Part shown: one piece after another, positions 7,147 to 43,141 of the stretch
Numbering within the stretch: the first letter of the stretch is position 1
Layout of the letters: each line of letters begins with the position of its first letter
Assembly: GCA_002842265.1 (NCBI GenBank)
Contig: PHCO01000005.1
Location: forward strand, 1 to 43,388
DNA: 43,388 bases
From: Betaproteobacteria bacterium HGW-Betaproteobacteria-18
GTDB taxonomy: Bacteria; Pseudomonadota; Gammaproteobacteria; Burkholderiales; Burkholderiaceae_C
Reading direction: 5' to 3'
Made by a program: the position numbers and the translations under genes
Notes under the pieces: model-generated
The model's input: only the letters and a program-made list of their open reading frames with translations
Told to the model about the DNA's origin: nothing
Database searches by the model: none

Positions 7147-8421
7147 TTGAAAAACAACGTGGTCGATCTTGATCTGGAAACCGCTTATTCAGCTGTTTCG
7201 GAAACCTATAAAGGCAAAGGCGACATTCATGTCGCTTGCCGTGAAATGAGGAGTAAGTCGCCAGTTTTTGTCGGTGACTTTCTTGAACAGTTTGGTGTTC
7301 CAACGAATGCTGGAATGCAACAGGGTACTCGTCCAACTTTTGCGCTGTTCAAATACCAGGACGTCATGAGTGTTCTTAGAGATGCTTCCACTTTCACCAA
7401 TGGTTTTATTGCTGAGGGATTGGGTGCCTTTTTTGATGGTTTGATTATCCTTGCGATGGATGGTGAGCAACACCGTCGCGTCCGTGCCTTGCTTCAACCG
7501 GCCTTTATGCCAGAAACAGTCAACAAGTGGCGGGACCAGATCGATGAAGTAATCCGCGAGGACTTTCTTGAGCAGATGGTGCCGGTAAAGAAAGCGGACC
7601 TGATGGATTTTGGGTTGAACTTTCCAATTCGCGAAATGTACGCGCTAATGGGGTTTCCTACCGACAACAAAGAGGCGTACCGAAAATATGCGGCCTGGAC
7701 TTTGGCTATGGTCGGCGGCAATCAGATTGATCCGGAAAAGGCCCCTGAAGCAAGGCGAAATGCAGGTATCGCTGTCAAATTACTCTATGACGCCATTAAG
7801 GATGTGGTGGTCAAGAGAAGGGCAGATGGTTGCATAGGAGACGACCTAATTGGCCGCCTGCTGCGAGCTGAGCATGAAGGGCATCGACTGAATGACCATG
7901 AAGTAGTTACGTTCGTGCGCTCCCTCCTTCCGGCTGCTGGCGAAACGACGACCCGTACATTTAGTTCGGTAATGTCTCTGCTGTTCGCTACACCAGGTCT
8001 GATTGATCGGGTACGCGCTGACCGTTCTCTAATACCGAAACTGATTGATGAGACAGTTCGCTATGAGCCAGTTTCAACATTCAAGGTGCGTGAAACGGCT
8101 AAAGATGTCGAATTCCACGGTGTGAAAATTCCAAAGGGTTCTTTTGTCCAGTGTTTGGTAGTGTCGGCCAATCGTGACGAAGAAGTATTCGAGAACCCAG
8201 ACACATTCGACATAGACCGCAAACTTAAACCGTCCTTTGGCTTTGGTTTCGGTCCGCACATGTGTATCGGCCAGTTCGTCGCCAAGGTCGAACTGAATTG
8301 TGCGATCAACGCCATCCTCGATCTTTTTCCGAATATCCGGCTTGACCCAGATATGCCGGCGCCAGTTATCGAAGGTGCGCAACTGCGTGGCGCATCGCAT
8401 GTTCATGTGATTTGGGACTAA
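7147..8421 (+). CDS. Cytochrome P450 (paralog 1)
   Basis: I-helix AAGETTTRTF, ExxR ETVR, heme loop FGFGFGPHMCIGQF. TTG start at 7147 after ggag; ORF open from 7105. Confidence 0.95.
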   Translation: MKNNVVDLDLETAYSAVSETYKGKGDIHVACREMRSKSPVFVGDFLEQFGVPTNAGMQQGTRPTFALFKYQDVMSVLRDASTFTNGFIAEGLGAFFDGLIILAMDGEQHRRVRALLQPAFMPETVNKWRDQIDEVIREDFLEQMVPVKKADLMDFGLNFPIREMYALMGFPTDNKEAYRKYAAWTLAMVGGNQIDPEKAPEARRNAGIAVKLLYDAIKDVVVKRRADGCIGDDLIGRLLRAEHEGHRLNDHEVVTFVRSLLPAAGETTTRTFSSVMSLLFATPGLIDRVRADRSLIPKLIDETVRYEPVSTFKVRETAKDVEFHGVKIPKGSFVQCLVVSANRDEEVFENPDTFDIDRKLKPSFGFGFGPHMCIGQFVAKVELNCAINAILDLFPNIRLDPDMPAPVIEGAQLRGASHVHVIWD

Positions 8422-8488
8422 ATCGTCAAGCCTGACACTTGCCCTTTCGTTTCTACGGAGGGCATTAGATCGTTTTCGGAAAATTCCC

Positions 8489-9520
8489 ATGAGAAAATTT
8501 ACGACCATTCCCCAGCGTGGCGACTTTGCTTATCAATGCCTGGTTGGTCCGCAAAATGTCAGTGGTGCAAAGTTGGCGGACTTGCGCGATCACTACGGTT
8601 TAAAGCTGACCAAGCACATGCCGTTTGGCTGCGTGCGCGATGATGACGGGCATATCTATGCAATGGTTCGCGCTATCAATGCGCCCGGTAGCAGCCCTAA
8701 TCCAACGAAGTTCATTTACCAGTCTACCCGTCTCGACAATAAGAATGTGCGAGTCGATAAAGCGCGGATTGCGACTCAGGCGCTGACGATGTTTCCGAAG
8801 CGATGGCTCGATGGCGATACCGCCTGCTGGTCGAGTCTGGATGAGGAAATGGGCAATCCGTGGCTGATTACAGCCTCAGGCACACGTTTTAGCTGGAAGG
8901 AGGAGGGGCTCCTCGATCTTAGTGGTTCTCTGATTGGCAATGGGATGCAGTGGTATTTGCCAGGAGAGGAATGGGGAACCTTCTATGTTTCCCAATTGTA
9001 TGATGTAAAAGGCATTTGCGAGGGGCGGCCGGTGAAAGGTGTTATCGCCTTGGATCAGGCCTGGCTACCAGAAGGTGGGAGCATCCATTTTCACAAGGAC
9101 TTGGTCGTAAATAACAAGATGCACGTGATTTGGTGGTCTTTTGCCACGATTTACAAGGATGGCACCTGGGATGTCGGTTCGTTCATGGTCGGGCACGATC
9201 ATCTCGGCTACGCAATTCTCCAGAACCATAAAGGCGAGATTTACTGTACTACGGACATCGAAGGCAGTGTTGTCCACAAGCCCGGTAGTTACTTTGTGGA
9301 GAGTGCTCGCATAGTGCTCGAGGGAAATGAGGAGTGGGAGTTTTTGCCTGATAAAAAGGGGGAAATGATCGATTTTGTCGGCGGATTTCCGATTACCGCG
9401 CAACAAGAGGGACGGTGGCGCAGAGTGGGTGATACGCGTGAGCCTGATCGCTGGATGGGTTGGGGGGAATCTGATCGTCGGAATGGAACTGCACGGAACG
9501 TACGGGGCCAAGATCTATAA
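8489..9520 (+). CDS. Conserved-looking protein of unknown function, possibly lipocalin/AttH-like beta-barrel
   Basis: 343 aa, 67 bp downstream of P450-1 on the same strand; Trp/Gly-rich with beta-like segments; no signature recognised. Confidence 0.6.
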   Translation: MRKFTTIPQRGDFAYQCLVGPQNVSGAKLADLRDHYGLKLTKHMPFGCVRDDDGHIYAMVRAINAPGSSPNPTKFIYQSTRLDNKNVRVDKARIATQALTMFPKRWLDGDTACWSSLDEEMGNPWLITASGTRFSWKEEGLLDLSGSLIGNGMQWYLPGEEWGTFYVSQLYDVKGICEGRPVKGVIALDQAWLPEGGSIHFHKDLVVNNKMHVIWWSFATIYKDGTWDVGSFMVGHDHLGYAILQNHKGEIYCTTDIEGSVVHKPGSYFVESARIVLEGNEEWEFLPDKKGEMIDFVGGFPITAQQEGRWRRVGDTREPDRWMGWGESDRRNGTARNVRGQDL

Positions 9521-9560
9521 ATAACGACGTTACGAATTGTTGCTGCAACGGAGAGTCAGT

Positions 9561-9920
9561 ATGAATACCTTTGAAATTAACGCTATCGAACGCTTTATGC
9601 ATGCACAAGTTGCTTGTTGGAACGCAGGCGACAAAGAGGGCTTTTTTGCTGCATATCGTGCTGCTGTGCCCGGTCGATTCTCAATCGAATATGTCGGCAA
9701 CTCATCAGCCGATGGATGGGCCGTGCTTGAGGGGATATGGGCAAAACAAAATGCTCGGATCGAGATCGAGGAGGTGGCCCTGGTCATCAATGGGCACGAA
9801 GCCGCTGCGCACAATCGCAACAGAATTAGGGATAGCTGTATTTGTATAGATACCATCGAGTTGTACAGCTTCAATGCTAGCGGCGACTTGTCCGTACGCT
9901 ATTTCATTGATCAGCCATAG
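9561..9920 (+). CDS. SnoaL/NTF2-like small protein
   Basis: About 119 aa; INAIERFMHAQVACWNAGDKEGFFAAYRAAVPGRFSIEYVG; gagag upstream of ATG 9561. Confidence 0.7.
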   Translation: MNTFEINAIERFMHAQVACWNAGDKEGFFAAYRAAVPGRFSIEYVGNSSADGWAVLEGIWAKQNARIEIEEVALVINGHEAAAHNRNRIRDSCICIDTIELYSFNASGDLSVRYFIDQP

Positions 9921-10302: not shown

Positions 10303-10872
10303 GTGCCCATTGCCAGCGACTACGAGGGGGCTAGGTTATTACGCAAGGATATTGTCGTGGTAAGAATTTCTACGGTACCTGTTGACCAGTTCCCCCCATC
10401 TCTTGCCGAGGCAGTCAGGCGTGGACGCTCCAACCGCATGCTCAGTTCCTCGGTTCCGGTTCAGGTTTGGGCCCATTGCCCGGAGGTCGCTGAGGCATGG
10501 CTTGGAGCCTTAGAAGCCATGCATTTACGAGGTCTTCTTGACCAGCGTCTAAAAGAGTTGGTTCGCTTGAAGATTGCCTCCATTACTACATGTAAGGCTT
10601 GTCAGGTAGCCCGTAAAGATGATTCGGTAAGCGAGCAAGACATTGCCTGCCTAGCATCAGACAGCGATCGCTTTTCTCCACCCGAGCAGGTGGCGCTACG
10701 CTACGCGGAGTTGTTCGCTGCAGACTATATGGCGATTGGTGACGAGGTTTTTGATAATTTGCGGAAGCATTTTTCTATTCCGGAAATCGTCGAACTCAAT
10801 ATGTTTTGTGCGCTGATGCTGGCAGGGGGGCGAATGACCTTTGTGCAGCAGGCCTACGATGAAATCGTTTGA
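10303..10872 (+). CDS. Carboxymuconolactone decarboxylase/AhpD-family protein
   Basis: LDQRLKELVRLKIASITTCKACQVARKD matches the CMD core; exact start uncertain (GTG 10360 possible). Confidence 0.8.
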   Translation: MPIASDYEGARLLRKDIVVVRISTVPVDQFPPSLAEAVRRGRSNRMLSSSVPVQVWAHCPEVAEAWLGALEAMHLRGLLDQRLKELVRLKIASITTCKACQVARKDDSVSEQDIACLASDSDRFSPPEQVALRYAELFAADYMAIGDEVFDNLRKHFSIPEIVELNMFCALMLAGGRMTFVQQAYDEIV

Positions 10873-11017: not shown

Positions 11018-12298
11018 TTGTTGATGTGGCAACGGTACAGTGCTCTTCCGCCGGTTCTGAAGAGATTCAGAATTGGTTGTCTGATGGCGACGACTCTCGG
11101 GAGTGCGCCATTGGCTGATGTGAATATGCCCCCGTCAAGCAATTCAAGCCGAAGCGTGCTCGTTGCCTTGATAGCTTGCCAGATTGGATTGCATGCCTGC
11201 GTTCAGGGCGTACGTCTTGCTGCACCATTGAGCGCCTTGCGGCAAGGATATTCTGAGTGGTCTGTTGGCCTGGTGCTGACCATGTTTGCGCTCTTTCCTG
11301 CATTATTGGCAATACCGGCAGGGCGATTTGCAGACCGGAATGGATATCATCTGCCTGTAAGGTTGGCAGCAATATTATCGGTTGTTGGAGCCTTTTTGGC
11401 TGTGTTCTCCGAGCAGCTTGTTTTTCTATGTGCTTCCGCAGCCCTGTGCGGTGCTGGATCTGGCCTTGGTATGATTACCATTCAGCGAAGCGCAAGTCGC
11501 TTGTCACATGGAGATGCCGACAGTCTACGGGTATTCAGCTGGATTGCTTTGGCTCCCGCCATTGCTGGGCTCTTTGGCCCCATGCTTGCTGGTGCGCTGA
11601 TCGACTATGCAGGATTTACTGCTGCATTTGTGGCCTTGGCACTTCTGCCTGCCTGCACCTTGTTGATATCTAAAGCGGTCCCTGTGGAGAGGCTGCCGAC
11701 TACTGTCAGAGGCCTACAAAATCAGCCGTCGTCCTCGGGCCTTTTGAGGTTGCCGGCTTTTCGCCGCTTACTATTAATCAACTGGCTGGTATCTGCAAGT
11801 TGGGATGTCCATTGTTTTGCCCTTCCCATCCTTGGGGTGCAACGCGGACTTAGTGCCTCAGCTTTGGGCGGTGTTCTGGCGGCATACGCAGTGTCTTCCA
11901 TGGCTGTGCGTCTAATTATTCCGGTAGTTGCTGAACTGCTTCCCAGGCGCCACATTTTGGTTGGCGCTCTGATGCTGACATTTTCAGTATTTTTAGTCTA
12001 TCCGCTTCTTTATGAGGCCTGGGCTATGGCGCTTTGTGCCGCAGCGCTTGGCATTGCCTTGGGGGCAATTCAACCTTCCATTCTGGCTACGCTGCTCGAT
12101 GTGGTGCCAAAGGAGCGGCACGGAGAGGCGTTGGCATTCCGCTCGATGACGGTTCATGCATCGATGACAGTGATGCCCCTATTCTTTGGCCTAATTGGCG
12201 CAGGCATCGGAGCCGCTTCCTTGTTCTGGCTGATGGCAACTGCCCTAGGGCTGGGGTGTTTGGAGGCTCGGCAGCTTAGATCGGTTGGTAGGTGTTGA
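11018..12298 (+). CDS. MFS transporter
   Basis: Multiple TM segments; MFS loop FPALLAIPAGRFADRNGYH. True start may be 11084 or later. Confidence 0.85.
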   Translation: MLMWQRYSALPPVLKRFRIGCLMATTLGSAPLADVNMPPSSNSSRSVLVALIACQIGLHACVQGVRLAAPLSALRQGYSEWSVGLVLTMFALFPALLAIPAGRFADRNGYHLPVRLAAILSVVGAFLAVFSEQLVFLCASAALCGAGSGLGMITIQRSASRLSHGDADSLRVFSWIALAPAIAGLFGPMLAGALIDYAGFTAAFVALALLPACTLLISKAVPVERLPTTVRGLQNQPSSSGLLRLPAFRRLLLINWLVSASWDVHCFALPILGVQRGLSASALGGVLAAYAVSSMAVRLIIPVVAELLPRRHILVGALMLTFSVFLVYPLLYEAWAMALCAAALGIALGAIQPSILATLLDVVPKERHGEALAFRSMTVHASMTVMPLFFGLIGAGIGAASLFWLMATALGLGCLEARQLRSVGRC

Positions 12299-12371
12299 GG
12301 CAGTCACGTATTGGGCTGACCGGGTTGGGGTTTTGCAAGCAGTTCAACTAATTAATACACGGGAGAAGAAT

Positions 12372-12572
12372 GTGTCTGATGTCAAAGTGAGTGTTCTTAA
12401 CAATGGGCCCATTAAAATCGATGGGGCAGTTGATCTTGTTCTGGAGGATGCTGTTCCCATGAATCCGGCAGGACCAATTTTCCTTTGTCGTTGTGGCGCT
12501 TCGGCCAATAAGCCATTTTGTGATGGAGCTCACACGCGGATTGGATTCAAGAGTAGCGCCGCTCAAAACTAG
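12372..12572 (+). CDS. CDGSH iron-sulfur domain protein
   Basis: FLCRCGASANKPFCDGAHTRIGF is the CDGSH signature; GTG start 12372 preceded by gggagaag. Confidence 0.88.
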   Translation: MSDVKVSVLNNGPIKIDGAVDLVLEDAVPMNPAGPIFLCRCGASANKPFCDGAHTRIGFKSSAAQN

Positions 12573-12687: not shown

Positions 12688-12784
12688 CCGGTGACCTCAG
12701 GGGGCCGGTTTCTGGTTGCCGTGAGATTCCGTTCTGTGAACAGGGGTCATGGTGGAGAACAAGAATTCACAGGAGGAAGATGAA

Positions 12785-14059
12785 ATGAGTAATAGCAGTA
12801 ATGCGGCTCTGGAAAAGGCGTTTGCCGGTGTGGCTGACAACTATCGAGGCGACGATGTAGATCTCAATGAGCTTTATCGCAATATGCGAAAGAACTCGCC
12901 GATCATCGCCGAGAACTTTATGGCTAAGCTTGGTGTGCCAAATATTGCTGGTCTGGACCCGGACCGTCCAACCTATACCGTTTTTAAGCACAAGGAAGTG
13001 ATGGCGGTGCTTCGTGATGCAGCCAACTATACAAGTGGCTTCATCGCTGAGGGTTTGGGTGCTTTCTTTGACGGTCTGATTTTGACCGGTATGGATGGTG
13101 ATGCACACAAAAAGGCGCGTGGCCTGCTCCAACCCATCTTCATGCCTGACGTAGTAAATACCTGGCGCGATGCAAAGATGGATCCGATTGTTCGGAACGA
13201 GTACCTTATTCCATTGATCCCCCAGAAAAAGGCCGACTTGATGGATTTTGGCCTATATTTTCCTATTAGGCTGATCTACGCACTTATCGGCTTTCCGGAT
13301 GATGATCCGGAAAAAATCAAACAGTATGCAGCTTGGGCCTTGGCAATTCTCGCGGGTCCTCAGTTGGATGCTGAGAAGGCCGCCATCGCACGCAAAGCAG
13401 CGATGGAGGCCGCTGCGGCACTCTATGATGCAGTCAAGATCGCCGTAGTCGATGTGCGAAAAAATGGGGGTCTTGGCAACGATTTGATCAGTCGCCTTAT
13501 TCGCGCTGAGTATGAAGATCGGAAGCTTGATGACCACGAGATCACCACTTTCGTTCGGTCTCTATTGCCTGCAGCTGGAGAGACTACGACGCGTACTTTT
13601 GGCTCACTGATGGTTCTGCTACTTGAGCGTCCTGAGTTGCTGGATCGCATCCGCGCTGACCGATCATTGATTGGCAAGGCAATCGATGAGGCCATTCGAC
13701 TAGAACCGGTAGCGACGTTCAAAGTTCGCCAGGCTGCCCAGGACCTAGAGTTGTCGGGCATGTCGATCCCCAAGGGGGCGATGGTCCAATGCATCGTCGC
13801 TTCAGCCAATCGTGATGAAGATGTCTTCGAAAATTCTGAAGTATTCGATATTGATCGAAAAGTGAAGCCTTCATTCGGATTTGGTTTTGGTCCGCATATG
13901 TGTATTGGTCAGTTTATTGCCAAGACGGAACTGCAGGTGGCCCTGAACGCTATTCTGGATCTTTTTCCGAATATTCGTTTGGATCCTGAACAACCAAGGC
14001 CAGAAATCACCGGCGCGCAGCTCCGAGGGCCACATTCTGTACCAGTGATTTGGGATTGA
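12785..14059 (+). CDS. Cytochrome P450 (paralog 2)
   Basis: AAGETTTRTF, EAIR, FGFGFGPHMCIGQF. ATG 12785 after aggaggaagatga; long blocks identical to the product of 7147-8421. Confidence 0.95.
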   Translation: MSNSSNAALEKAFAGVADNYRGDDVDLNELYRNMRKNSPIIAENFMAKLGVPNIAGLDPDRPTYTVFKHKEVMAVLRDAANYTSGFIAEGLGAFFDGLILTGMDGDAHKKARGLLQPIFMPDVVNTWRDAKMDPIVRNEYLIPLIPQKKADLMDFGLYFPIRLIYALIGFPDDDPEKIKQYAAWALAILAGPQLDAEKAAIARKAAMEAAAALYDAVKIAVVDVRKNGGLGNDLISRLIRAEYEDRKLDDHEITTFVRSLLPAAGETTTRTFGSLMVLLLERPELLDRIRADRSLIGKAIDEAIRLEPVATFKVRQAAQDLELSGMSIPKGAMVQCIVASANRDEDVFENSEVFDIDRKVKPSFGFGFGPHMCIGQFIAKTELQVALNAILDLFPNIRLDPEQPRPEITGAQLRGPHSVPVIWD

Positions 14060-14224: not shown

Positions 14225-15532
14225 ATGAAACTTGAAGATCTGATCTTGGTTAGCGTTGACGATCATGCGATTGAGCCGCGTGGTGCGTTTGATCGGCACA
14301 TGCCAGCCAAGTACAAAGGGCGTCAGCCGAAAGTCGAGAACCGAGATGGCCGTGACATCTGGGTATTCGAAGATCAAGCCACGGGCTACATGGGTCTAAA
14401 CTCCGTGGTAGGGCGCCCGAAAGAAGAGTACGGTATGGAGCCGCTATCCTACGAGCAGATGCGCCGTGGTACTTGGGATGTCAAGGCTCGCGTGGATGAT
14501 ATGAATGCCAATGGCGTTCTTGGTTCAATTTGTTTCCCAACTTTCCCTGGTTTTGCTGGGCAGCGTTTTCAGGTTATGCCGGACAAAGATGTAAGCCTTG
14601 CCGCGATTCAGGCGTACAACGATTGGCACTTGCATGACTGGTGCAATGCTGCACCTGGCCGTTTTGTTCCGCTAATGATGGTGCCATGGTGGGATATGCA
14701 GGCGGCCGCAGCCGAAGTCAAGCGCTTGGCTGCTCAGGGTGTGCATGCAGTAACATTTTCAGACAATCCGACCGTGCACGGCTATCCGTCCATCCATAGC
14801 CCTCACTGGGATCCGTTGTGGAAAGCTTGTTCGGACAACAATGTCGTGGTCTGCTGCCATATCGGTACCGGAACCAAGGCGGCTCATGCATCGGATGATT
14901 CCCCGATTGACGCCTGGATTACTGCCATGCCGATCTCGATTTCGAACTCCGCAGCTGACTGGATTTGGGCGCCGATGTGGAAGAAGTTTCCGAAGCTTAG
15001 GATGGCTCTGTCAGAAGGTGGTATCGGTTGGATTCCCTATCTGCTTGAGCGCGCCGATTTTACGCATAACCACCATCACGCTTGGACGATGTCTAATTTC
15101 GGTGGCAAGAAGCCTAGCGATATCTTCAACGAACACATCATTACCTGCTTCATTGAAGATGCGTTTGGTCTCAAAAACCTTGACTCCATTAATGTCGACA
15201 AGGTGACTTGGGAGTGTGATTACCCGCATTCGGACTGCACCTGGCCGAACTCGGCCGATGTGTTCTGGGATCAGGCAAAGCATCTGCCGGATGAGATCAT
15301 CAACAAGATTTCGCACCTTAACGTGATGCGTGAGTTCTCGTATGACCCATTCGCTATTCTCGGGCGTGAAAACTGCACGGTTGGCGCCTTGCGCGCCCAG
15401 GCTGCTCATGTCAACGTAGAGCCTGCTCTGGGCTTGGGTGGCGCTGCGGTTGAGCGAGATCCTAGCAAGCCGGTGACTTCTGGTGACATCAATAAGATGT
15501 TTGCAGCAGCAGACGCGCAGACTGCGCTCTGA
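14225..15532 (+). CDS. Metal-dependent amidohydrolase (COG2159, PF04909-type)
   Basis: 435 aa; VSVDDHAIEP start, GGIGWIPYLLERAD, WECDYPHSDCTWPNS; gaggag upstream. Confidence 0.88.
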   Translation: MKLEDLILVSVDDHAIEPRGAFDRHMPAKYKGRQPKVENRDGRDIWVFEDQATGYMGLNSVVGRPKEEYGMEPLSYEQMRRGTWDVKARVDDMNANGVLGSICFPTFPGFAGQRFQVMPDKDVSLAAIQAYNDWHLHDWCNAAPGRFVPLMMVPWWDMQAAAAEVKRLAAQGVHAVTFSDNPTVHGYPSIHSPHWDPLWKACSDNNVVVCCHIGTGTKAAHASDDSPIDAWITAMPISISNSAADWIWAPMWKKFPKLRMALSEGGIGWIPYLLERADFTHNHHHAWTMSNFGGKKPSDIFNEHIITCFIEDAFGLKNLDSINVDKVTWECDYPHSDCTWPNSADVFWDQAKHLPDEIINKISHLNVMREFSYDPFAILGRENCTVGALRAQAAHVNVEPALGLGGAAVERDPSKPVTSGDINKMFAAADAQTAL

Positions 15533-16794: not shown

Positions 16795-16796
16795 TC

Positions 16797-20461: not shown

Positions 20462-20475
20462 ATGGAGCTTTGATG

Positions 20476-32417: not shown

Positions 32418-32569
32418 AGCAGTTGGCTCCGTGGGTGCTGGTGTAGGAATGTCGATACGTTGCCGACATCCCATGTGCGCACATCAATTCTGTGCGGAAG
32501 TGATTGCTCTTCGTATGAATCTCCGGAACTAATCGATCATCTTGGGGCTGGTAAATTGTGGTCAAGGGG

Positions 32570-33631: not shown

Positions 33632-34402
33632 TTAAAGTGCGAGTAAGCCGCCGTCAATGACGAGATCCGAGCCAGTCATGAATGCAGCCTCATCCGATGC
33701 CACATAGAGAGCCAAGGAAACGATCTCTTCTGGTTCCCCCGGACGATCTTGCAGGACCCCGTCGAGAAGCGCTCGGCGGGTCTTGGGATCGTCTACAAAA
33801 GCAGCCGTGCCGGGGGTCCGTACAAAACCTGGGCTGATGCTGACGGCCCGAATCCCCTGTGGAGCTCCTTCTACCGCCAGTTGTCGGGTGAAGGAAACAA
33901 CGGCACCTTTCGCTGCGGCGTGGGCGCTAATGCCGGCCACCTTGGAGCCACCCCAGGCAGCAGTTGAGGCAATGTTGATTACCACGCCACCCTGAACTGC
34001 CAAGTGTTCCCAGGCATATTTTGTGGTGAAAAAAATCAAGTCGAGTTCATTCCGGATCGTGTAATGCCAATCATCAATCGAAAATTTGTCGACTGCTCCG
34101 AAACGCGCGGCAGAGGCGTTATTGTAAAGAATGTTGATGCGCCCGTGCTGCTTGATTGCCGACATAATCCATTCACGGGCTTGTTCATGGTCGCCGAGGT
34201 CGACGGGTGCGTTGCCATACAGACTAAACCCCTCGGCCTGCAGCAGGCGATGGGTTTCTTCATGAGCTGCTGCATCAACATCACAGCCGACAACAATTGC
34301 GCCTTCTCGCGCAAATTGCAAGGCGGCTGCTCGCCCTTGTCCACCACCTGTGCCTGTGATGAGGGCGACTTTTCCAGTCAATCTTTTCATGACAATGTCC
34401 AA
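33632..34402 (-). CDS. SDR-family protein with His at the catalytic Tyr position
   Basis: LTGKVALITGTGGGQGRAAALQFA; IASTAAWGGSKVAGISAHAAAKGAVVSFTRQLA. Start may be 34390. Confidence 0.87.
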   Translation of the reverse strand: MDIVMKRLTGKVALITGTGGGQGRAAALQFAREGAIVVGCDVDAAAHEETHRLLQAEGFSLYGNAPVDLGDHEQAREWIMSAIKQHGRINILYNNASAARFGAVDKFSIDDWHYTIRNELDLIFFTTKYAWEHLAVQGGVVINIASTAAWGGSKVAGISAHAAAKGAVVSFTRQLAVEGAPQGIRAVSISPGFVRTPGTAAFVDDPKTRRALLDGVLQDRPGEPEEIVSLALYVASDEAAFMTGSDLVIDGGLLAL

Positions 34403-34514: not shown

Positions 34515-34730
34515 TCAGGGCATCGGGGGGGTGACGTGAATGGCTTCTGCGGGGCAAACTGCAGCGCCTTCAATGGCAGCCTCTTCCATACCGGCAGGTA
34601 CGAAATCAATTTCAAGGTATACGATACCGTCGGCATCAAGCTTATAGACGTCCGGGCAGATTGCGGCGCAAAGTCCGTATCCGCAACAACGGCTGCGGTC
34701 AATAGTGACCTTGTGAAGTTTTTCGCTCAT
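34515..34730 (-). CDS. [3Fe-4S]/[4Fe-4S] P450-type ferredoxin
   Basis: MSEKLHKVTIDRSRCCGYGLCAAICPDVYKLDADGIVYLE ... GAAVCPAEAIHV; aaggag upstream of ATG. Confidence 0.88.
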   Translation of the reverse strand: MSEKLHKVTIDRSRCCGYGLCAAICPDVYKLDADGIVYLEIDFVPAGMEEAAIEGAAVCPAEAIHVTPPMP

Positions 34731-34831: not shown

Positions 34832-35620
34832 TCAGTAAAGCAAGCTGGACAACTTGTTGGCTAGCTTTCGTACGGCTTCGCCAATTTTCTTGATATCTTC
34901 AGGGGTGTGTTGTCCGCGAAACATTACAGCTGAGAGGGTGGCCGCTATACCGGTATTCCGCTCTCTGATTGGCGCCGCAATGGTCTGAATGCCGGCAGAG
35001 AAGTATCCATCGTCAATGGCCCAGCCGCACTCTCGCGCTAAGGCGACCTGTGCCAAATATTCGTCGAAGCTAAGTGGGCGGGCCCAGCGGACTTTATTGA
35101 AAGCCGCTTGCATGGTTGATATGTCGAGGTTCATGTGAGCGGCAAAGAGGCGGCCGCTTGCGCCCATCAAGATCGGCAACCGTTGCCCAACGGCCATGTC
35201 GATACGTAAGTCGCTTGGGCTGGTTTCTGAACTAACCAGAACTATGCGATCCGATCCCATCTGGCGCCAAAGTGTAGCCGTGACATGAAAACGGGCCGCG
35301 AGTTCCTGCATGAGGGGCTTTGCGACATCAAGTCGCTGACCCTGGGTTACAAGATGATCTAGCAGTTTGGCCAGGCCGAGTCCTGGTGTGTAGGTTTTCG
35401 ACAAGGCACTAAAATCGATCATTCCTTCGGCTACCAAGGTCCGGAGGATGTTAAAGCATGTGCTCGGATTAATCGATAGTTCCCGTGCGATATCGGAGGC
35501 TCGTTCGGGGGTTCCGGAAAGGGTCAGGAAACGGATGATGCTGATTGCGTTCGAGACGGGCTTAACCATTACACCTGTTGATGGCCGAAGCGAGCCTTGT
35601 TCTGTTGTTTCATTTTCCAT
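34832..35620 (-). CDS. IclR-family transcriptional regulator
   Basis: 262 aa; NAISIIRFLTLSGTPERASDIARELSINPSTCFNILRTLVAEGMI; C-terminal effector domain ECGWAIDDGYFSAGIQTIAAPIRE. Confidence 0.92.
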   Translation of the reverse strand: MENETTEQGSLRPSTGVMVKPVSNAISIIRFLTLSGTPERASDIARELSINPSTCFNILRTLVAEGMIDFSALSKTYTPGLGLAKLLDHLVTQGQRLDVAKPLMQELAARFHVTATLWRQMGSDRIVLVSSETSPSDLRIDMAVGQRLPILMGASGRLFAAHMNLDISTMQAAFNKVRWARPLSFDEYLAQVALARECGWAIDDGYFSAGIQTIAAPIRERNTGIAATLSAVMFRGQHTPEDIKKIGEAVRKLANKLSSLLY

Positions 35621-35724: not shown

Positions 35725-36588
35725 TTATGGTTTGTAGTAGCCCACGGCGACGATATAGTTATTGACCACTTGAAACAGTGCGAACTTGTTTTCGCTTCGC
35801 TGCGTAACGGGGTTCTTCCAGACGTACTGAAGCTGACCATTTTGTTGCTTGAGTGATTGTGCTATCAGGTTTTTGATAATTGGTGTGCCGTCACGGTCAC
35901 GTAGTTCATTGCCATCTGTGCCGCGTAGCCTTGGCATCGTTCCGTGCGCTACGAAGCGGCCAGTCCGGGTATCGATCACATATACATAGAGATCGTCCTG
36001 TATGAAGCGGCCATCTAGCTTGTTGAATTCTTCAATTGCCTCGGATGGAGATGTTTTCATCGCTGCTACGGCGTGATTGAGAAATGCTCGCGCCTGATCT
36101 TGCGACGCGCGAGTAAGGTAGTAACCGACGGCAATGATCCTGTCAGACGAGACTTCAAAGAATGGACGTTTTCGTTGAATCGTATTGTCTGCCCAGTTGA
36201 GCCAGCGATAGTCAACTTCGCCGTGGCCATCCTGGCGGGCCTTGTGAATCATTTCGGCAAAAAATGGTTTGCCTGCTATGTCCCGCATTGTCTTGACGTT
36301 CCGCCCAACGAGCGTGGCGGAGGAACCTCCGCTCGTTAAAACAACGCCATCCATGTCGAGAACGTATACATAGAGTTCGTTGTCAGTAAATTCCCCTTGT
36401 CGTGCAAACTCTGCCAATGCCTTGTCTTGAACTGCTTGATAACGCAAGACTGCTCGCTGCAGGAGCTGTTGGGCCCGTTTTGCGTCGAGTGAATCGTTGG
36501 CGCTACTTGGAGTATCTGCTGCCCAGAGAGGATGAAGGCCGGTTGAGAGGATCAAGGCAATACCCATAAGAACTTTTTTCATAAACAT
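35725..36588 (-). CDS. Secreted/periplasmic double-Cache domain protein
   Basis: Signal peptide MFMKKVLMGIALILSTGLHPLWA; two repeats YVYVLDMDGVVLTSGG...IIAVGYYL and YVYVIDTRTGRFVAHG...YIVAVGYYKP. ATG 36588 after gaggaaacg. Confidence 0.85.
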   Translation of the reverse strand: MFMKKVLMGIALILSTGLHPLWAADTPSSANDSLDAKRAQQLLQRAVLRYQAVQDKALAEFARQGEFTDNELYVYVLDMDGVVLTSGGSSATLVGRNVKTMRDIAGKPFFAEMIHKARQDGHGEVDYRWLNWADNTIQRKRPFFEVSSDRIIAVGYYLTRASQDQARAFLNHAVAAMKTSPSEAIEEFNKLDGRFIQDDLYVYVIDTRTGRFVAHGTMPRLRGTDGNELRDRDGTPIIKNLIAQSLKQQNGQLQYVWKNPVTQRSENKFALFQVVNNYIVAVGYYKP

Positions 36589-36649: not shown

Positions 36650-37843
36650 TTATTCACGAACCAGCAATACGCTACCAGCCAAGGGGCCTCCTCCGGAGGC
36701 GACAACGGAAACCTGATGCTCGGCGATCTGTCTCTTCCCGGCTCTGCCCCATAGCTGGCTGCATGCTTCGTGAACATAACCAAGGCCATGCGTGCGGCCG
36801 CCCGATAATTGGCCACCATTGGTGTTAATTGGCAGTTGGCCGGTGCGGGAAATTCGCTCTCCCCCCTCAATAAAACGGCCACTTTCGCCTCGGGGGCAGA
36901 GTCCGAGAGCTTCCATCCAGATCATGGTCAGAATGGAAAATCCATCATACAGTTGAGCCGAGCCGACATCGCTTGGCTTGTAGTCGGTGCGTGCCCACAT
37001 CATGTCACTGGCGTCGCCGGCAGCCATGCCGGTAAGATCGATTTGGTCCCATGACCAGGGCTGGTGCAGTGCAGAGCCAATGGCTTCGATTCGTATCGGT
37101 TGATTCGGCCCATCTTTAGCAACATCGGCACGAGACAAAATGATGGCTGTTGAGGCGTCGCAATGAACATCGCAATCGAGCATCCGTAACGGGCTGGAAA
37201 TCATCCGTGAGGCTAGGTAATCGTCCAAGCTGAGTGCCGTGCGATAGATGGCCTTTGGATTGAGCGCAGCATTAGCGCGACAAGTCAGTGCGATTTGGGC
37301 CAGTTGTTCCGGGGTGGTTCCATATTCATGGAAGTGGCGCTGCGCATAGAGCGCCATGAGATTGACCCCAGAAAGCACGTTGAATGGGGTGTACCATTGC
37401 CAGAAAAAGCTGCTGTCGCGGCCAACTGTTTTGTTGGTTAGGGCGCTTGCAGTCTTGTCGGTTTGTCGGCGGCTCGCTTCGGTAATGGTGCGAAATACGA
37501 GCACGTTACGGCATAGCCCCGCAGCGATCGCCATCGCGCCATTAATTATGCCAGCTAGTGGGCCGGGGCCTTCATAACCAGCGCCGTACCAATTGACTTT
37601 GAGTCCAAGAGTGCTGATTAAGGCATTCGGGCCAACCGGCGAAAAGGCATCCCCATTGTTGTTGTCTCCCGGCCAGCAGGCGACACCGTCAATATCATCT
37701 CGTCGGAGCCCAGCATCGGCTATTGCCTCGAGGCAAGCATCCAAGGTTAGCTGCATGGCTGTTTTTGCTACTGGGCGCCCAACTTCAGATTGGCCGATGC
37801 CGGAGATGGCGACGTCTTTTTCAAAAATTCGGTCGAACATCAT
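36650..37843 (-). CDS. Thiolase-fold protein lacking catalytic cysteines (SCP2-thiolase/Ltp2-like)
   Basis: 397 aa; MQLTLDACLEAIADAGLRRDDIDGV; NTNGGQLSGGRTHGLGYVHEACSQL; ASGGGPLAGSVLLVRE. Confidence 0.85.
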   Translation of the reverse strand: MMFDRIFEKDVAISGIGQSEVGRPVAKTAMQLTLDACLEAIADAGLRRDDIDGVACWPGDNNNGDAFSPVGPNALISTLGLKVNWYGAGYEGPGPLAGIINGAMAIAAGLCRNVLVFRTITEASRRQTDKTASALTNKTVGRDSSFFWQWYTPFNVLSGVNLMALYAQRHFHEYGTTPEQLAQIALTCRANAALNPKAIYRTALSLDDYLASRMISSPLRMLDCDVHCDASTAIILSRADVAKDGPNQPIRIEAIGSALHQPWSWDQIDLTGMAAGDASDMMWARTDYKPSDVGSAQLYDGFSILTMIWMEALGLCPRGESGRFIEGGERISRTGQLPINTNGGQLSGGRTHGLGYVHEACSQLWGRAGKRQIAEHQVSVVASGGGPLAGSVLLVRE

Positions 37844-38239
37844 TCATCTTTCTCGAACAGAGGTAGCCAGACGTCTTCGTGTTGCTCGAATCGCACCTTA
37901 ACCGCCATGTTGATACGAACCTCTTCGGGAGGTATGTCAACAATATTGCTGACGAAACGGAGTCCGGCTTGCTCTTCTAGTTCAACAATCGCGACGACAT
38001 AGGGTGTGGTCAGATCGGGGCGCCACGCTTGGTAGTTGATTGTGTAGCTTGCGACATGCCCTTTGCCGGAAACGCGTCTGGGTTCCACGGCAAAGCTTGT
38101 GCAGCGTGGACAGATCGGTGCAGGAGGATGGAAGAAACGGGGGCACTGCTGACAATAGTGAATTGTGAGCTGTCCCTTTGCGCCATCGTGCCAAAAATTG
38201 ACGTTGTCAGGTGTGATTGACGGTAGTTTTCGAGTCATA
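37840..38239 (-). CDS. Zn-ribbon/OB-fold (DUF35) protein
   Basis: YCQQCPRFFHPPAPICPRC (CxxC...CxxC) then GKGHVASYTINYQAW OB-fold; overlaps thiolase-fold gene by 4 bp. Confidence 0.88.
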
Positions 38240-38289
38240 TGGTTCGCCTTGTCGTTTGACGAATGGTCAATACTGATTCTATAACAAGA

Positions 38290-38318
38290 TATAGACATAT
38301 GTTTAAAAACTGTCTAAA
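38290..38318 (-). promoter_or_regulatory. Putative sigma70 promoter of the DUF35/thiolase-fold operon
   Basis: Minus strand TAGACA - gtttttaaacatatgtc (17) - TATATC; spacer similar to that of the ferredoxin promoter at the same distance from the ATG. Confidence 0.45.
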
Positions 38319-38370: not shown

Positions 38371-39072
38371 ATGTCATCTGCAATTAGATCTACTAATATT
38401 GTGATTACAGGCGGCTTCGGGGCGCTGGGTCGGGCCTTGGCTGCTCGCTTGGTCGCCGAAGGTGCGCAAGTTGTGTTGCTCGACTGCGCACCTGTGCCGA
38501 CAGATGGGCTACCTTCGGGAGTTGTTCTCGCGCTTGGCGAGGTTGATCTGAGTGATGGGATTTCCTGCACAACTGCATTTGACAGCATACGAAGTGTTCT
38601 CGGAGGTATCGACGGATTGGTTAACGTCGCCGGGGGGTTTGTTTGGGAGTCGGTTGAGAGTGGCACTCTTGAGTCTTGGGATCGTATGTATGCGATGAAT
38701 GTGCGTACTGCTATTGCCAGTTGTCGTGCTGCCTTGCCGCATCTTTTGGAACATCCTGCGGGACGCATAGTCAATGTGGCTTCGATGGCAGCGCTTAAGG
38801 CCGGAGCGGGAATGGGCGCTTATGCGGCCTCAAAATCCGGCGTCATCCGCTTGACGGAAGCGCTCTCCGAGGAGTTTAAGGATCGGGGGATTACCGTGAA
38901 TGCTGTGCTCCCGAGCACCATCGATACGCCGGCAAGCCGGGCCCTTATGCCGGATGCCGATAGAAACCGTTGGGTGTCGCTTGGGAAACTTGCTGCAGTC
39001 ATTGCATTTTTACTCTCAGATGATGCATCTGATGTGACCGGGGCGAGTATTCCGGTCAGCGGGCGACTCTAA
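38371..39072 (+). CDS. SDR-family oxidoreductase
   Basis: 233 aa; NIVITGGFGALGRALAARLVAEG; NVASMAALKAGAGMGAYAASKSGVIRLTEAL (YxxxK present). Confidence 0.92.
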   Translation: MSSAIRSTNIVITGGFGALGRALAARLVAEGAQVVLLDCAPVPTDGLPSGVVLALGEVDLSDGISCTTAFDSIRSVLGGIDGLVNVAGGFVWESVESGTLESWDRMYAMNVRTAIASCRAALPHLLEHPAGRIVNVASMAALKAGAGMGAYAASKSGVIRLTEALSEEFKDRGITVNAVLPSTIDTPASRALMPDADRNRWVSLGKLAAVIAFLLSDDASDVTGASIPVSGRL

Positions 39073-39157
39073 ATAACAGATATTGGGTTTTCAAACGCCC
39101 GTAAATCATTCGTACTTGGCCGCTTCCAAGTGGCGTTTCGCGAAATTGAGGCAAAGC

Positions 39158-40144
39158 ATGAGATTAGTTACCTATCTTAACGAACATGGGATTCAGCGAG
39201 CAGGGGCGCTGATTGAGTCAGATTCAGCGATTGTTGATTTGCTCGCGGCGGCAGAGAAAATCACGGGTAATGCCATTCCAGAATTCGCCAGTATCCTATC
39301 GTTGGTCGAAGGTGGTAAGAACGCGTTAGACGCTGCAGGGGCTCTTGTGGCGCGGGCACCAACTATTGCGGTGGTTCAGCGCGACATGGTGAGGTTGTGT
39401 GCGCCAATCCAGCCGCCGCCCCAGATGCGAGATTGTTCTTGTTTTGAATTGCATCTTCGCCAGAGCTTTGCTGCCGCGAGACGAGCACGGGTAGCAAACG
39501 AGCCGAATCCAGAAGAGGCACTTAAGCTCATGAATACCCGTGCCGACGATCGCGTTATCGAGACTTTTAATCGTCAGCCCATCTATTACAAGTGCAACCG
39601 ATTTGCCGTGATCGGTCCGGATGACGATGTAATCTGGCCTTCCTATAGCAAGGTAATGGATTTTGAACTTGAGTTTGCTTGCTACATAGGTCGCCAGACC
39701 AAGGACGTTGCGCGTGAAAGAGCTCGCGAGCATATCGTCGGTTACACCATTTTCAACGACATGAGTGCGCGGGACGCGCAGGCCAGGGAAATGCCAGGAA
39801 TGCTTGGCCCAGCCAAGAGCAAGGATTTTGATACAGGCAATGTGATGGGGCCGTGCCTAGTGACTGCAGACGAGTTGCCTGATCCCTACGATCTACTCAT
39901 GATTGCACGGGTCAATGGTGAGGAGTGGGGGCGAGGTACGACGCGAGACATGCGCTGGCAGTTCGAGGATGTCATTGCGCATATATCCCGTTCGGAAACG
40001 CTATATCCCGGTGAGGTCCTTGGGTCTGGAACGGTTGGCAATGGCTGTGGCCTAGAGCAGCAACGTTTCCTGAAGCCCAACGATGTCATTGAACTTGAAG
40101 TCGAGGGTATCGGCATCCTGCGTAGCCGCGTGATTAAATCGTGA
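39158..40144 (+). CDS. Fumarylacetoacetate hydrolase-fold (FAH) family protein
   Basis: MRLVTYLNEHGIQRAGALIESD; DFELEFACYIGRQTKDVARERAREHIVGYTIFNDMSARDAQARE; GSGTVGNGCGLEQ. Confidence 0.9.
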   Translation: MRLVTYLNEHGIQRAGALIESDSAIVDLLAAAEKITGNAIPEFASILSLVEGGKNALDAAGALVARAPTIAVVQRDMVRLCAPIQPPPQMRDCSCFELHLRQSFAAARRARVANEPNPEEALKLMNTRADDRVIETFNRQPIYYKCNRFAVIGPDDDVIWPSYSKVMDFELEFACYIGRQTKDVARERAREHIVGYTIFNDMSARDAQAREMPGMLGPAKSKDFDTGNVMGPCLVTADELPDPYDLLMIARVNGEEWGRGTTRDMRWQFEDVIAHISRSETLYPGEVLGSGTVGNGCGLEQQRFLKPNDVIELEVEGIGILRSRVIKS

Positions 40145-40175: not shown

Positions 40176-41504
40176 ATGGGAATATATCTCATGAAAAATA
40201 GGCACATGACATCCAGTCTGGCGGCAATCGATTTGACTGAGTTCAAGGAAGCATGGTCCATCGTGCTCTTGGCGGTGGTTGGTGTGGCAATTAGCATCAA
40301 CGCCGCACTCCTTTATGGTTTCGGTGTGCTTGTTATTCCATTGCAGCAGGCTTTTGGATGGGAACGAGGGGAGTTGCAGGCAGCAATCAGTTTTCTATTT
40401 GGCGGAGCGGTAATTGGACTGCAACTTGTCGGCTGGGCCAATCTCCGCTACGGAATCAAGCGAGTCACTCTCGCCTCCTTTTTCCTGATGGCGCTTGGCT
40501 ATCTTGCAACGACACAAATCTGGGGTTCAATCTGGAGCTTGTACGCCGCATTTTTCCTTCTGCCAATTTGTGGAATGGGGGCTCTCGCTGTCACTTGGAC
40601 CCAGTTGCTTAACCTCTGGTTTATGCGCAATCGAGGGCTGGCCCTAGCAATCGGACTTTCAGGGACAGGTATCACAGCGGCATTGATCCCCCGCCTGCTG
40701 GGGTGGGGAGTCGAGAACTGGGATTGGCGGGCGGCGTTCGTTATTCTGGCTACTCTTAATTTAGTGATCGGAATTCCTCTGACCTTGTGGTGGTTTCGAC
40801 TTCCAGGAGAACTCAAGAGAGCGTCGCCGGGGACCAAAAATCAATCTGAGAAAATTGTTGAGCGTACCTCTTTGGCGGGAATCGATTTTCGTCATGGTGT
40901 GTGCGCCCCCAAATTCTGGGTCTGCAATATCGCGCTATCGTTGGTAGTATCGGCGGTGGTCGGCTTAGTTACAAGTACCGTCCCGATGCTGCGCGACCGT
41001 GGGTTCTCGACGGCAGAGGCAACTATGATCTTCAGCTATTTTGGCTTTGCGTTGATCGCTGGCCGTCTAGTTGTTGGTTATCTGCTTGATCGATTCTGGC
41101 CTCCCGGAATTGCAGCACTGAGTTTGGCACTGCCTGCTGTTGGTTGCCTGATCTATTTGTCTGACAACAACTCAATACAGCTGATTAGTCTAGCTGGTGT
41201 GCTCATCGGTCTGGGGGCCGGTGCCGAATTCGATATTGCCGCCTTTTTGATTGCACGTTACTTCGGACTCAAGGATTACGGCCGGCTGTTTGGAGTGCAT
41301 CAGGGGCTGATTACCGTCGCATCAGCTGCTGCGCCGCTGCTCTTTGCAAGCATGCTGGCAAAGAGTGGTTCATATTCCTCGATGCTGACCTATAGCGTGG
41401 TCAGCACGCTAATTGGCTCCTTCATGTTACTGACTCTTGGGCGTAGTCCGTCATTCGTGCAAGAAGTCTATCCAGAGCATTCAAGAAGACAGAAGCTTCT
41501 GTAG
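40176..41504 (+). CDS. MFS transporter (monocarboxylate/oxalate-formate-type)
   Basis: 442 aa, 12 TM-like; YGFGVLVIPLQQAFGWERGELQAAISFLFGGAVIG. Confidence 0.88.
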   Translation: MGIYLMKNRHMTSSLAAIDLTEFKEAWSIVLLAVVGVAISINAALLYGFGVLVIPLQQAFGWERGELQAAISFLFGGAVIGLQLVGWANLRYGIKRVTLASFFLMALGYLATTQIWGSIWSLYAAFFLLPICGMGALAVTWTQLLNLWFMRNRGLALAIGLSGTGITAALIPRLLGWGVENWDWRAAFVILATLNLVIGIPLTLWWFRLPGELKRASPGTKNQSEKIVERTSLAGIDFRHGVCAPKFWVCNIALSLVVSAVVGLVTSTVPMLRDRGFSTAEATMIFSYFGFALIAGRLVVGYLLDRFWPPGIAALSLALPAVGCLIYLSDNNSIQLISLAGVLIGLGAGAEFDIAAFLIARYFGLKDYGRLFGVHQGLITVASAAAPLLFASMLAKSGSYSSMLTYSVVSTLIGSFMLLTLGRSPSFVQEVYPEHSRRQKLL

Positions 41505-41544
41505 TTCAGTCCTGATTAGAAACAACTTTATAAGAGAATTCCAC

Positions 41545-41865
41545 ATGCCTACCATTACTTTCATCGAGCACAACGGTAACGAACATCAGGTTTCCATCGA
41601 GGTCGGACAGTCTGTCATGCAGGCTGCTACCTTTGCCGGCCTACCCGGGATATCGGCTGATTGCGGCGGGGCATGTGCATGTGCCACATGCCATGCCTAC
41701 GTTGATGAGTCCTGGATGGGACATTTTGGTCCTGCGCAAGGAACGGAGAAGGACATGCTTGAGAATGTGCCGATGCTTATGCCGAATAGCCGCCTGACTT
41801 GCCAATTGGTTGTAACTGCAGACATGGACGGCCTTACTCTGCGTTTGCCCGAATCGCAGTATTGA
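41545..41865 (+). CDS. [2Fe-2S] ferredoxin (adrenodoxin/putidaredoxin type)
   Basis: MPTITFIEHNGNEHQVSIEVGQSVMQAA; CGGACACATCHAYV ... SRLTCQL. Confidence 0.94.
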   Translation: MPTITFIEHNGNEHQVSIEVGQSVMQAATFAGLPGISADCGGACACATCHAYVDESWMGHFGPAQGTEKDMLENVPMLMPNSRLTCQLVVTADMDGLTLRLPESQY

Positions 41866-41887
41866 CCTGAAAACAAGGATTTTGGAA

Positions 41888-43141
41888 ATGCCACTACAAT
41901 CTATCGTGATCATTGGTGCTGGGCATGGTGGTTTTCAGGTTGCTGCCTCGCTACGTCAGGAAGGCTTCGATGGCGAGATCATTCTGGTCAATAACGAGCA
42001 GGGTCTGCCCTACCAGCGTCCCCCGTTATCTAAAGCGTATTTGCTCGGAAAGATCAATGCATCTGCAATGATCTTCCGGCCTGAGGTGTTTTATGAGGAT
42101 CAGCGCATTCGCATGATTCATGATGATGCTGAGGCAATCGACCGACAGAATCAGCGCGTCATACTAAAATCCGGCGCTGAGCTTCGCTACGATCACCTAG
42201 TGCTGGCTACAGGGGCGCACAATCGGCCACTTAACGTGCCCGGTTCTGACATGGATGGAATCTTTGGAATTAAGACGAAAGTGGATGCTGATGCTTTGTC
42301 TCCACTGCTTCAGTCAGCGAAAAACGTTGTGGTAATTGGCGCTGGTTTCATTGGACTCGAGTTCGCGGCTGTTGCTGCCGCTGGCGGTGCTACCGTCGAA
42401 GTCATCGAGCTAGGCGATCGTCTGATGGCACGGGCTGTATCGCCGCAGATGTCGGAGTTATTCCTTTCAGCGCACCAAGGGTGGGGGGTTAAGTTCAATT
42501 TTCGTACCGGTATAGCTGCATTAAAGGGCGAGGGTGGGAAGGTTGCCGAGGTGGTTACTTCGGATGGTCGACTATTGCCGGCAGATCTTGTGGTCTTTGG
42601 CATTGGGGTGATTCCTAATGTGGCTCTAGCGTTAGAGGCAGGGCTTGAAATCGACAATGGGATTCGTGTAAATGGCAATATGCTGACGTCAGATCCAGCT
42701 ATATCAGCACTTGGCGACGTGGCGGCATTTCCCTGTGCCCAAAATGATGAAAAGCTGACACGTCTGGAATCGGTCCAGAATGCCGTAGACCAAGGGAAAC
42801 TGATTGCTGCACGCCTGATGGGTAAGCCCGCCCAGTATTCGGCGCTGCCCTGGTTTTGGACAGATCAAGGTAGCCTAAAGCTGCAAATTGCCGGGCTGTC
42901 GACAGGGGCAGACAGCTATGTAGCTCTCGGCGATATTGAGAAGCAGCAATTGTCTGTGTTGTGTTTTCGAGGTCAAGAACTGTTGGCGGTCGAGTCGTGC
43001 AGTCGGCCGGGCGACCACATCATCGCCCGGAAAATTCTTTCTCGTCCCCCCGCATTAACGCCGGCTATCGCTGCAACTCCGGGCTTTGACCTGAAAGTAT
43101 GGGAATCCGAGAACCGTCCAGGAGAAGGGGCTGGAAGGTGA
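41888..43141 (+). CDS. Ferredoxin reductase (putidaredoxin/rhodocoxin reductase-like)
   Basis: IVIIGAGHGGFQVAASLRQEGFDGEIILVNNEQGLPYQRPPLSKAYL; VVIGAGFIGLEFAAVAAAGGATVEVIE. Confidence 0.93.
   Translation: MPLQSIVIIGAGHGGFQVAASLRQEGFDGEIILVNNEQGLPYQRPPLSKAYLLGKINASAMIFRPEVFYEDQRIRMIHDDAEAIDRQNQRVILKSGAELRYDHLVLATGAHNRPLNVPGSDMDGIFGIKTKVDADALSPLLQSAKNVVVIGAGFIGLEFAAVAAAGGATVEVIELGDRLMARAVSPQMSELFLSAHQGWGVKFNFRTGIAALKGEGGKVAEVVTSDGRLLPADLVVFGIGVIPNVALALEAGLEIDNGIRVNGNMLTSDPAISALGDVAAFPCAQNDEKLTRLESVQNAVDQGKLIAARLMGKPAQYSALPWFWTDQGSLKLQIAGLSTGADSYVALGDIEKQQLSVLCFRGQELLAVESCSRPGDHIIARKILSRPPALTPAIAATPGFDLKVWESENRPGEGAGR

Follow-up and report, generated by a model that had tools for sequence, protein, structure and literature searches.

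A dit-type gene cluster for abietane diterpenoid catabolism in a betaproteobacterial genome and a possible drain of its ring C into leucine catabolism

We analysed a 43,388-nucleotide contig of the metagenome-assembled genome of Betaproteobacteria bacterium HGW-Betaproteobacteria-18 (PHCO01000005.1, assembly GCA_002842265.1), called the window below, across which gene classes were assigned by Pfam and NCBIfam. Homology indicates that the window almost certainly carries most of a dit-type cluster through which abietane diterpenoids (conifer resin acids, among them dehydroabietic and abietic acid) would be broken down aerobically; it also contains a fused indolepyruvate:ferredoxin oxidoreductase-like enzyme (IOR), for which we propose a role at the entry to leucine catabolism. 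A preliminary description made from the sequence alone had placed at 7147–43141 a candidate aromatic-steroid cluster resembling the 4,5-seco estrogen pathway. All gene classes that it named were found: P450s, ferredoxins, a reductase, a VOC dioxygenase, the IOR, acyl-CoA dehydrogenases (ACADs), a crotonase, an electron transfer flavoprotein (ETF), CoA ligases, a thiolase pair, an FAH protein and amidohydrolases. The span itself lies inside the cluster, which fills nearly the whole contig (1–43388) and has further members outside that span in a small VOC protein (1593–1976), a CoA ligase (2006–3637) and a CrtI-like gene (4693–6282). Dit letters were assigned by class, the two P450s (~60% alike) being given jointly as DitQ/DitU. 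The genes that carry the argument are listed first, with percentages denoting identity to counterparts in dit clusters or in the organisms named (P. abietaniphila, Pseudomonas abietaniphila; LB400, Paraburkholderia xenovorans LB400).

7105–8421, plus: cytochrome P450 a (DitQ/DitU class); 80–82% P. abietaniphila, 68% LB400
12749–14059, plus: cytochrome P450 b (DitQ/DitU class); 71–74% P. abietaniphila and LB400, 80% other Paraburkholderia
15649–16794, plus: ACAD1; 73–81%
16791–17855, plus: ACAD2, probable partner subunit of ACAD1; 55–63%
17852–18652, plus: crotonase; 71–81%
18688–19812, plus: ACAD3; 82–91%
20963–21874, minus: LysR regulator, divergent from the IOR; 58–60% beside the IOR in LB400 and P. 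abietaniphila
21971–25534, plus: IOR of full-length fused TPP/POR/DUF6537 architecture, proposed for a 2-oxoacid to acyl-CoA step; NF009588, 1969 bits against a cut-off of 952
25577–27559, plus: acetoacetate-CoA ligase; TIGR01217, 938 bits against a cut-off of 521; also in Zoogloea dit loci
27586–28335, plus: ETF beta (Pfam)
28338–29267, plus: ETF alpha (Pfam; start by reading frame)
32615–33553, minus: DitC-type VOC ring-cleavage extradiol dioxygenase, placed by the identities and tree given below
33632–34402, minus: short-chain dehydrogenase/reductase (SDR) beside ditC, candidate dihydrodiol dehydrogenase; 65–73% beside ditC in LB400 and P. abietaniphila
34515–34730, minus: small 3Fe-4S/4Fe-4S-type ferredoxin, DitA3 candidate by its cysteine motif and likeness to Massilia and Caulobacter ferredoxins
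36650–37843, minus: thiolase-fold protein, DitF candidate; 78–85%
37840–38298, minus: OB-fold/rubredoxin-like (ChsH2-type) partner; 61–63% beside the thiolase
39083–40144, plus: FAH-family hydrolase/hydratase/isomerase, DitH candidate; 71–80%
41545–41865, plus: 2Fe-2S ferredoxin (Pfam); 59% P. abietaniphila
41882–43141, plus: ferredoxin reductase; 59–73%

The first lead came from searching plasmids for relatives of the window dioxygenase and of its 343-residue protein (8489–9520), which returned a Massilia putida plasmid and a Caulobacter plasmid, the latter carrying parts of the cluster beside ring-hydroxylating dioxygenase genes. A species-wide scan (one genome per species, 84,980 species) with an alignment of three dioxygenases matched Aromatoleum, Thauera, Zoogloea, Massilia, Paraburkholderia and Pseudomonas, including P. 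abietaniphila (genome ATCC 700689, presumably strain BKME-9) and LB400. The latter two are the reference resin-acid degraders, where knockout mutants link the dit genes to growth on these compounds (PMC10710418, PMC13063091). The window dioxygenase was 75% identical to the P. abietaniphila and 77% to the LB400 enzyme, in each case the sole match at E≤1e-60 in the genome, and fell into one fully supported 19-member clade with dit enzymes. The dit regions of LB400 and P. abietaniphila encode 68–80% counterparts of both P450s, the thiolase-fold DitF, isomerase DitH, IclR regulator and permease classes had counterparts at 59–81% in dit clusters, and 27 of the 38 window proteins were matched at no less than 50% identity (50–86%) across ~67 kb of LB400 chromosome 3 (597–665 kb). 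We assign the window to the dit family because its dioxygenase, P450s and thiolase pair group with dit genes and not with edc/oec genes. A substrate other than estrogen, diterpenoids among the candidates, had been allowed for in the preliminary description, and that suggestion agrees with the assignment.

The estrogen reading itself fared differently. An edc/oec-like or other aromatic-steroid cluster would contain the same enzyme classes, namely a P450, a type I extradiol dioxygenase, an IOR, ACADs and a thiolase/OB pair. The yardstick was the cluster of Novosphingobium ES2-1, which we take to be an estradiol degrader. In gene order this cluster agrees with what has been published for edc (PMC7793797). 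The window dioxygenase was only 29% identical to the edc-type enzyme of this strain, compared to 75–88% for dit enzymes, and the edc-type enzyme (EdcB/OecC, 4-hydroxyestrone 4,5-dioxygenase) lay outside the ditC clade. Likeness of the P450s to EdcA reached only 34–35% over part of the protein, the edc order IOR-ACAD-MaoC-MaoC was absent, the Pfam scan finding no MaoC gene in the window, and the genome encodes DitA1A2 (see below). Membership in an estrogen cluster was ruled out by identities, gene order and trees, and orthology of the IOR to EdcC by its tree (a different branch, with the edc row on a long branch; 48% identity), leaving this alternative exceedingly improbable. The dioxygenase phylogeny thus led to a family of another known substrate, an outcome foreseen at the start as speaking against estrogen, and the genes once singled out as extra, and as signs of a different substrate or a new variant, are mostly normal parts of dit clusters. 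The edcC gene has been suggested to mark Pseudomonadota that degrade estrogens (PMC12507874). Despite this proposal, the set of P450, extradiol dioxygenase and IOR alone is no sign of estrogen degradation.

No Rieske dioxygenase was found in the window by Pfam or locus comparison. Contig C89 of the same genome (2343–4337) encodes both an alpha subunit like DitA1, 69% identical to that of P. abietaniphila, and an adjoining beta subunit, ruling out a loss of ring hydroxylation. This DitA1, the only one in the genome, belongs to a second DitA1 clade (12 members, support 100/100) together with Massilia, Zoogloea, Acidovorax and P. resinovorans; only the first type occurs in P. abietaniphila and LB400. 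This separation, the Massilia genomes that likewise hold only the second type, and an O-methyltransferase in the window would fit a dit-like cluster whose substrate is another aromatic or abietane-like diterpenoid, perhaps phenolic or modified at C18. However, every other core enzyme is closest to standard dit genes, and several genomes carry both DitA1 types (Aromatoleum, Zoogloea, Acidovorax and P. resinovorans); we regard such a substrate as unlikely.

The IOR is linked to ditC: it lay on the same contig at a distance of ≤60 kb in 42 of 57 ditC genomes, compared to 2.6 expected from copy number and genome size (200,000 simulations, never above 13, with genomes treated as independent though related). 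In the IOR tree, dit-linked copies fell into a beta-/gammaproteobacterial clade, a Pseudomonas clade apart from it and a long Acidovorax branch, with the edc-type enzyme elsewhere, and the window copy grouped with ordinary burkholderial IORs. Because the dit-linked copies occupy separate places in this tree, the IOR must have been recruited to dit at least twice, probably three times. A divergent LysR gene stands beside it in the window, LB400, P. abietaniphila and Glaciimonas. One could argue that the genes for the IOR, ETF and acetoacetate-CoA ligase belong to amino-acid catabolism and lie beside the cluster by chance, since similar IORs occur elsewhere in the same genomes, including three other copies in LB400 and a second IOR a few kb from a chromosomal 3-methylcrotonyl-CoA carboxylase beta-subunit (MCC-beta) gene, away from dit, in P. 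abietaniphila and a relative; set against the linkage counts, the separate recruitments and the conserved LysR gene, coincidence appears quite improbable. The non-dit IOR of P. abietaniphila (G073, contig C23, 662–670 kb) lies ~3 kb from MCC-beta, with a similar pair in genome G093; these pairs suggest that a part in leucine catabolism may be common among Pseudomonas IORs.

In three lineages a branched-chain 2-oxoacid dehydrogenase complex takes the place of the IOR. No IOR was found in the genome of Marinobacter alexandrii, in which a complete complex follows ACAD1-ACAD2-crotonase-ACAD3-Cache-FolE, and the same complex (E1-alpha 74–82% alike) is present in the dit regions of Robiginitomaculum and the Caulobacter plasmid. 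An E1 gene on the Brevundimonas subvibrioides ditC contig was not counted as a replacement, as it codes for a longer, different protein without a match to the Caulobacter complex.

Genes of leucine catabolism (liu) recur at dit clusters. Seven of the 34 genomes searched held two full MCC-beta copies of >65% identity, and in all seven one copy lay 8–64 kb from ditC; besides the genome of the window, nine genomes or plasmids carried liu genes at their dit cluster. One gammaproteobacterium carries a single operon of IOR, isovaleryl-CoA dehydrogenase, MCC-beta, methylglutaconyl-CoA hydratase, MCC-alpha and HMG-CoA lyase genes, Glaciimonas carries IOR, MCC-beta and MCC-alpha genes beside ditC, and a liu set is found in full at the cluster edge in Massilia and Telluria and at or near the cluster in Marinobacter. 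The enzyme encoded directly after the IOR in the window, one of the CoA ligases noted earlier and here specified as an acetoacetate-CoA ligase, acts at the end of the leucine route. The 2-isopropylmalate detected in resin-acid cultures (PMC6891630) was not used as support, being also an intermediate of leucine biosynthesis.

On balance we lean towards an account in which ring C is drained into leucine catabolism: DitC would cut C9–C11, the isopropyl piece would leave as ketoleucine or isovaleryl-CoA, a dedicated IOR or a branched-chain 2-oxoacid dehydrogenase would link it to the leucine pathway, and several bacteria would have duplicated leucine-pathway genes into their dit clusters. The steps up to DitC are drawn by homology to published dit work, and the reactions beyond it are what we infer from the gene identities, linkage, replacement and recruitment described above. 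The P450s would hydroxylate ring B at the 7-position and dehydrogenases would give the 7-oxo compound; DitA1A2, encoded on the other contig, would dihydroxylate ring C at C11/C12 with the small ferredoxin and the reductase, and the SDR beside ditC would re-aromatise the ring. DitC would then open ring C at C9–C11, a ring-fusion bond, to a 2-oxo acid with C11 as the carboxyl, C12 as the keto carbon and the isopropyl group on C13. Cleavage at this bond is plausible because type I dioxygenases of the DitC family (BphC, HsaC, EdcB) usually cut next to the carbon with a bulky substituent; cleavage at C12–C13 would give isobutyryl products and leave the leucine genes unexplained. Hydration by the FAH-family enzyme and an aldol-type C13–C14 cleavage, by the thiolase/OB pair or another aldolase, would release the isopropyl-bearing piece as 4-methyl-2-oxopentanoate (ketoleucine), analogous to pyruvate release in ordinary meta pathways. 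The IOR or the dehydrogenase complex would convert ketoleucine to isovaleryl-CoA, which leucine catabolism would turn into acetyl-CoA and acetoacetate, the latter being activated by the acetoacetate-CoA ligase. The IOR might alternatively act before the aldol step, as EdcC does, with the thiolase/OB pair then releasing isovaleryl-CoA directly; the order through ketoleucine is the likelier. The route first suggested for the locus (P450 hydroxylation, meta-cleavage, oxidative decarboxylation, beta-oxidation) is thereby retained in outline for a polycyclic terpenoid but not for the estrogen family, and its decarboxylation step survives with the likeliest substrate moved from the ring-cleavage product itself to ketoleucine.

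The same dit cluster could also employ the IOR fully in the manner of EdcC, for oxidative decarboxylation of the bulky ring-cleavage product to a CoA thioester, the liu genes being there for other reasons. This is difficult to reconcile with the replacement of the IOR by branched-chain 2-oxoacid dehydrogenases, which normally act on small branched oxoacids, with the extra liu copies at dit clusters and the IOR-liu operon, and with the place of the window IOR among ordinary burkholderial enzymes at 48% identity to the edc-type one. In estrogen degraders EdcC does catalyse this reaction once meta-cleavage has opened a comparable ring-fusion bond (PMC7793797), and the IOR is tied to ditC; we consider such a role possible though doubtful.

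Several points weigh against the drain of ring C into leucine catabolism or narrow it. The bond cleaved by DitC and the products after the 11,12-dihydrodiol were not identified, according to a 2026 paper (PMC13063091). Related species are not independent observations for the linkage counts, and within the 57-genome set the IOR is unlinked to ditC in several Paraburkholderia and absent from Brevundimonas genomes. No liu genes lay close to dit in the stretches of LB400, P. abietaniphila and P. resinovorans that were compared, so a liu operon does not accompany every dit cluster. The genome's own MCC-beta (83%) is on contig C122, with no isovaleryl-CoA dehydrogenase, MCC or HMG-CoA lyase gene in the window, and the liu set could serve another branched fragment. 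Lastly, the exact substrate may differ from 7-oxodehydroabietate, because the genome's DitA1 belongs to a clade without P. abietaniphila and LB400. Taken as a whole, a dit-type cluster is very likely the best explanation of the window, with the proposed IOR/leucine account somewhat more likely than not.

Conifers defend themselves with large amounts of resin acids, which are also pollutants from pulp mills. The fate of ring C is a gap in the degradation pathway of these acids, for which the comparative pattern names a product, predicts the bond cleaved and singles out genes. The window is a further representative of already known dit clusters, and what it adds is the role proposed for the IOR. 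A literature search, with most subscription papers outside it, found no paper joining dehydroabietic with indolepyruvate or with isovaleryl-CoA, and the leucine route is perhaps new.

The remaining features of the window are as follows.

1–106: left terminal inverted sequence, an IS3-family-like end that interrupts a PanE-like gene (76–345, minus); 97% inverted match to 43283–43388
497–1534, minus: O-methyltransferase (Pfam); no counterpart seen in the dit clusters compared
1593–1976, minus: small VOC protein; 74% in the LB400 dit region and Massilia
2006–3637, minus: dit-type acyl-CoA ligase; 72–75% P. abietaniphila and LB400, 83% Massilia
3751–4527, plus: TetR regulator (Pfam); 52–57% in LB400
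4693–6282, plus: CrtI/CrtO-like FAD oxidoreductase (COG1233); 61–64% P. abietaniphila and LB400; NCBIfam CrtO below cut-off
6251–6961, minus: TetR regulator; 47–50% in dit clusters
8489–9520, plus: 343-residue protein, no Pfam family, predicted AttH/CrtC-like double-barrel fold (Foldseek); 59–76% in dit clusters
9537–9920, plus: SnoaL-like small protein; 53–56% in dit clusters, adjoining the 343-residue gene
10303–10872, plus: carboxymuconolactone decarboxylase-like protein; 54–65% in dit clusters
11018–12298, plus: MFS transporter (Pfam); 65% Massilia
12285–12572, plus: CDGSH iron-sulfur protein (Pfam)
14225–15532, plus: complete amidohydrolase of dit clusters; 80–90%
19901–20461, plus: GTP cyclohydrolase I (FolE); TIGR00063 over cut-off; recurrent at dit clusters
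20458–20916, plus: hemerythrin domain protein; 51% LB400 dit region, 72% Aromatoleum
29785–31371, minus: MFS_3 transporter; 45–66% beside ditC in many dit loci
31368–32474, minus: Usp-hemerythrin fusion (Pfam); 58–71% in Aromatoleum, Thauera and Zoogloea dit loci
34832–35620, minus: IclR regulator; 59–61% in dit clusters
35725–36588, minus: Cache-domain protein with signal peptide (Pfam); 44–60% in dit loci; listed reading-frame start at 36882 probably too early
38371–39072, plus: SDR dehydrogenase; 59–67%
40176–41504, plus: MFS transporter, DitE candidate; 66–69% P. abietaniphila and Massilia
43225–43388, plus: first part of an amidohydrolase (MLIDVHAH...), truncated by the right IS3-like end (43283–43388); reads like the start of the amidohydrolase after the reductase in Massilia

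One of the two amidohydrolases named earlier is therefore complete, and the other is broken off at the contig end. Both contig ends are one ~99–106 bp sequence in inverted orientation, which has only 2 copies in the genome assembly and matches IS3-family ends (IS1389/ISCte3-like). Insertion sequences may once have flanked the cluster on both sides; a contig broken at a repeat during assembly is the simpler explanation.

The 343-residue protein had no Pfam or NCBIfam family, and a PDB sequence search gave no match. Its predicted structure (pLDDT 69, moderate confidence) showed an AttH/CrtC-like fold, with 2ich as the best Foldseek match (E 2e-8) and kievitone hydratase and 25-phosphosteroid lyase among the others. 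Relatives of this fold include hydratases and pericyclases, and the protein could possibly be an isomerase, hydratase or lyase acting on a diterpenoid. Mycobacterium branderi and Paraburkholderia sprentiae hold distant relatives (35%) in clusters rich in ACAD genes. FolE recurs in or near dit clusters of Aromatoleum (87%), Marinobacter (49%) and P. resinovorans (51%), in P. abietaniphila (50%) ~33 kb beyond the IOR, and on the Massilia plasmid at 78 kb; a hemerythrin gene adjoins it in the window (19901–20916) and in Aromatoleum, and no pterin-dependent enzyme was evident. The Usp-hemerythrin fusion and the MFS_3 transporter adjoin ditC, the fusion being kept in Aromatoleum, Thauera and Zoogloea.

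Compared with known systems, the window shares with edc/oec estrogen clusters the logic of a P450, a type I extradiol dioxygenase and an IOR, and differs from them in sequence (29% for the dioxygenase, 48% for the IOR) and gene order. The dit cluster of P. abietaniphila shares the dioxygenase at 75%, a P450 at 80% and the thiolase at 81%, with its IOR 27 kb from ditC beside the same LysR; in contrast, that IOR belongs to the separate Pseudomonas clade, and DitA1, of the other clade, lies inside the cluster. LB400 has the ditC-type dioxygenase, both P450s, thiolase/OB pair, FAH protein, ACAD-crotonase block, LysR-IOR pair and 343-residue protein among its 27 matches, but in rearranged order and orientation, with DitA1 of the other clade and no match to FolE, acetoacetate-CoA ligase or Usp-hemerythrin in the 597–665 kb stretch. 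The uncharacterised Massilia putida plasmid (NZ_CP019037) lacks a detectable acetoacetate-CoA ligase and Usp-hemerythrin fusion, and has five extra genes (CoA transferase, SDRs, ACAD, phosphotransferase) and a full liu operon at the cluster edge, whereas the rest is syntenic with the window nearly gene for gene, at 60–91% identity and with DitA1 of the same clade.

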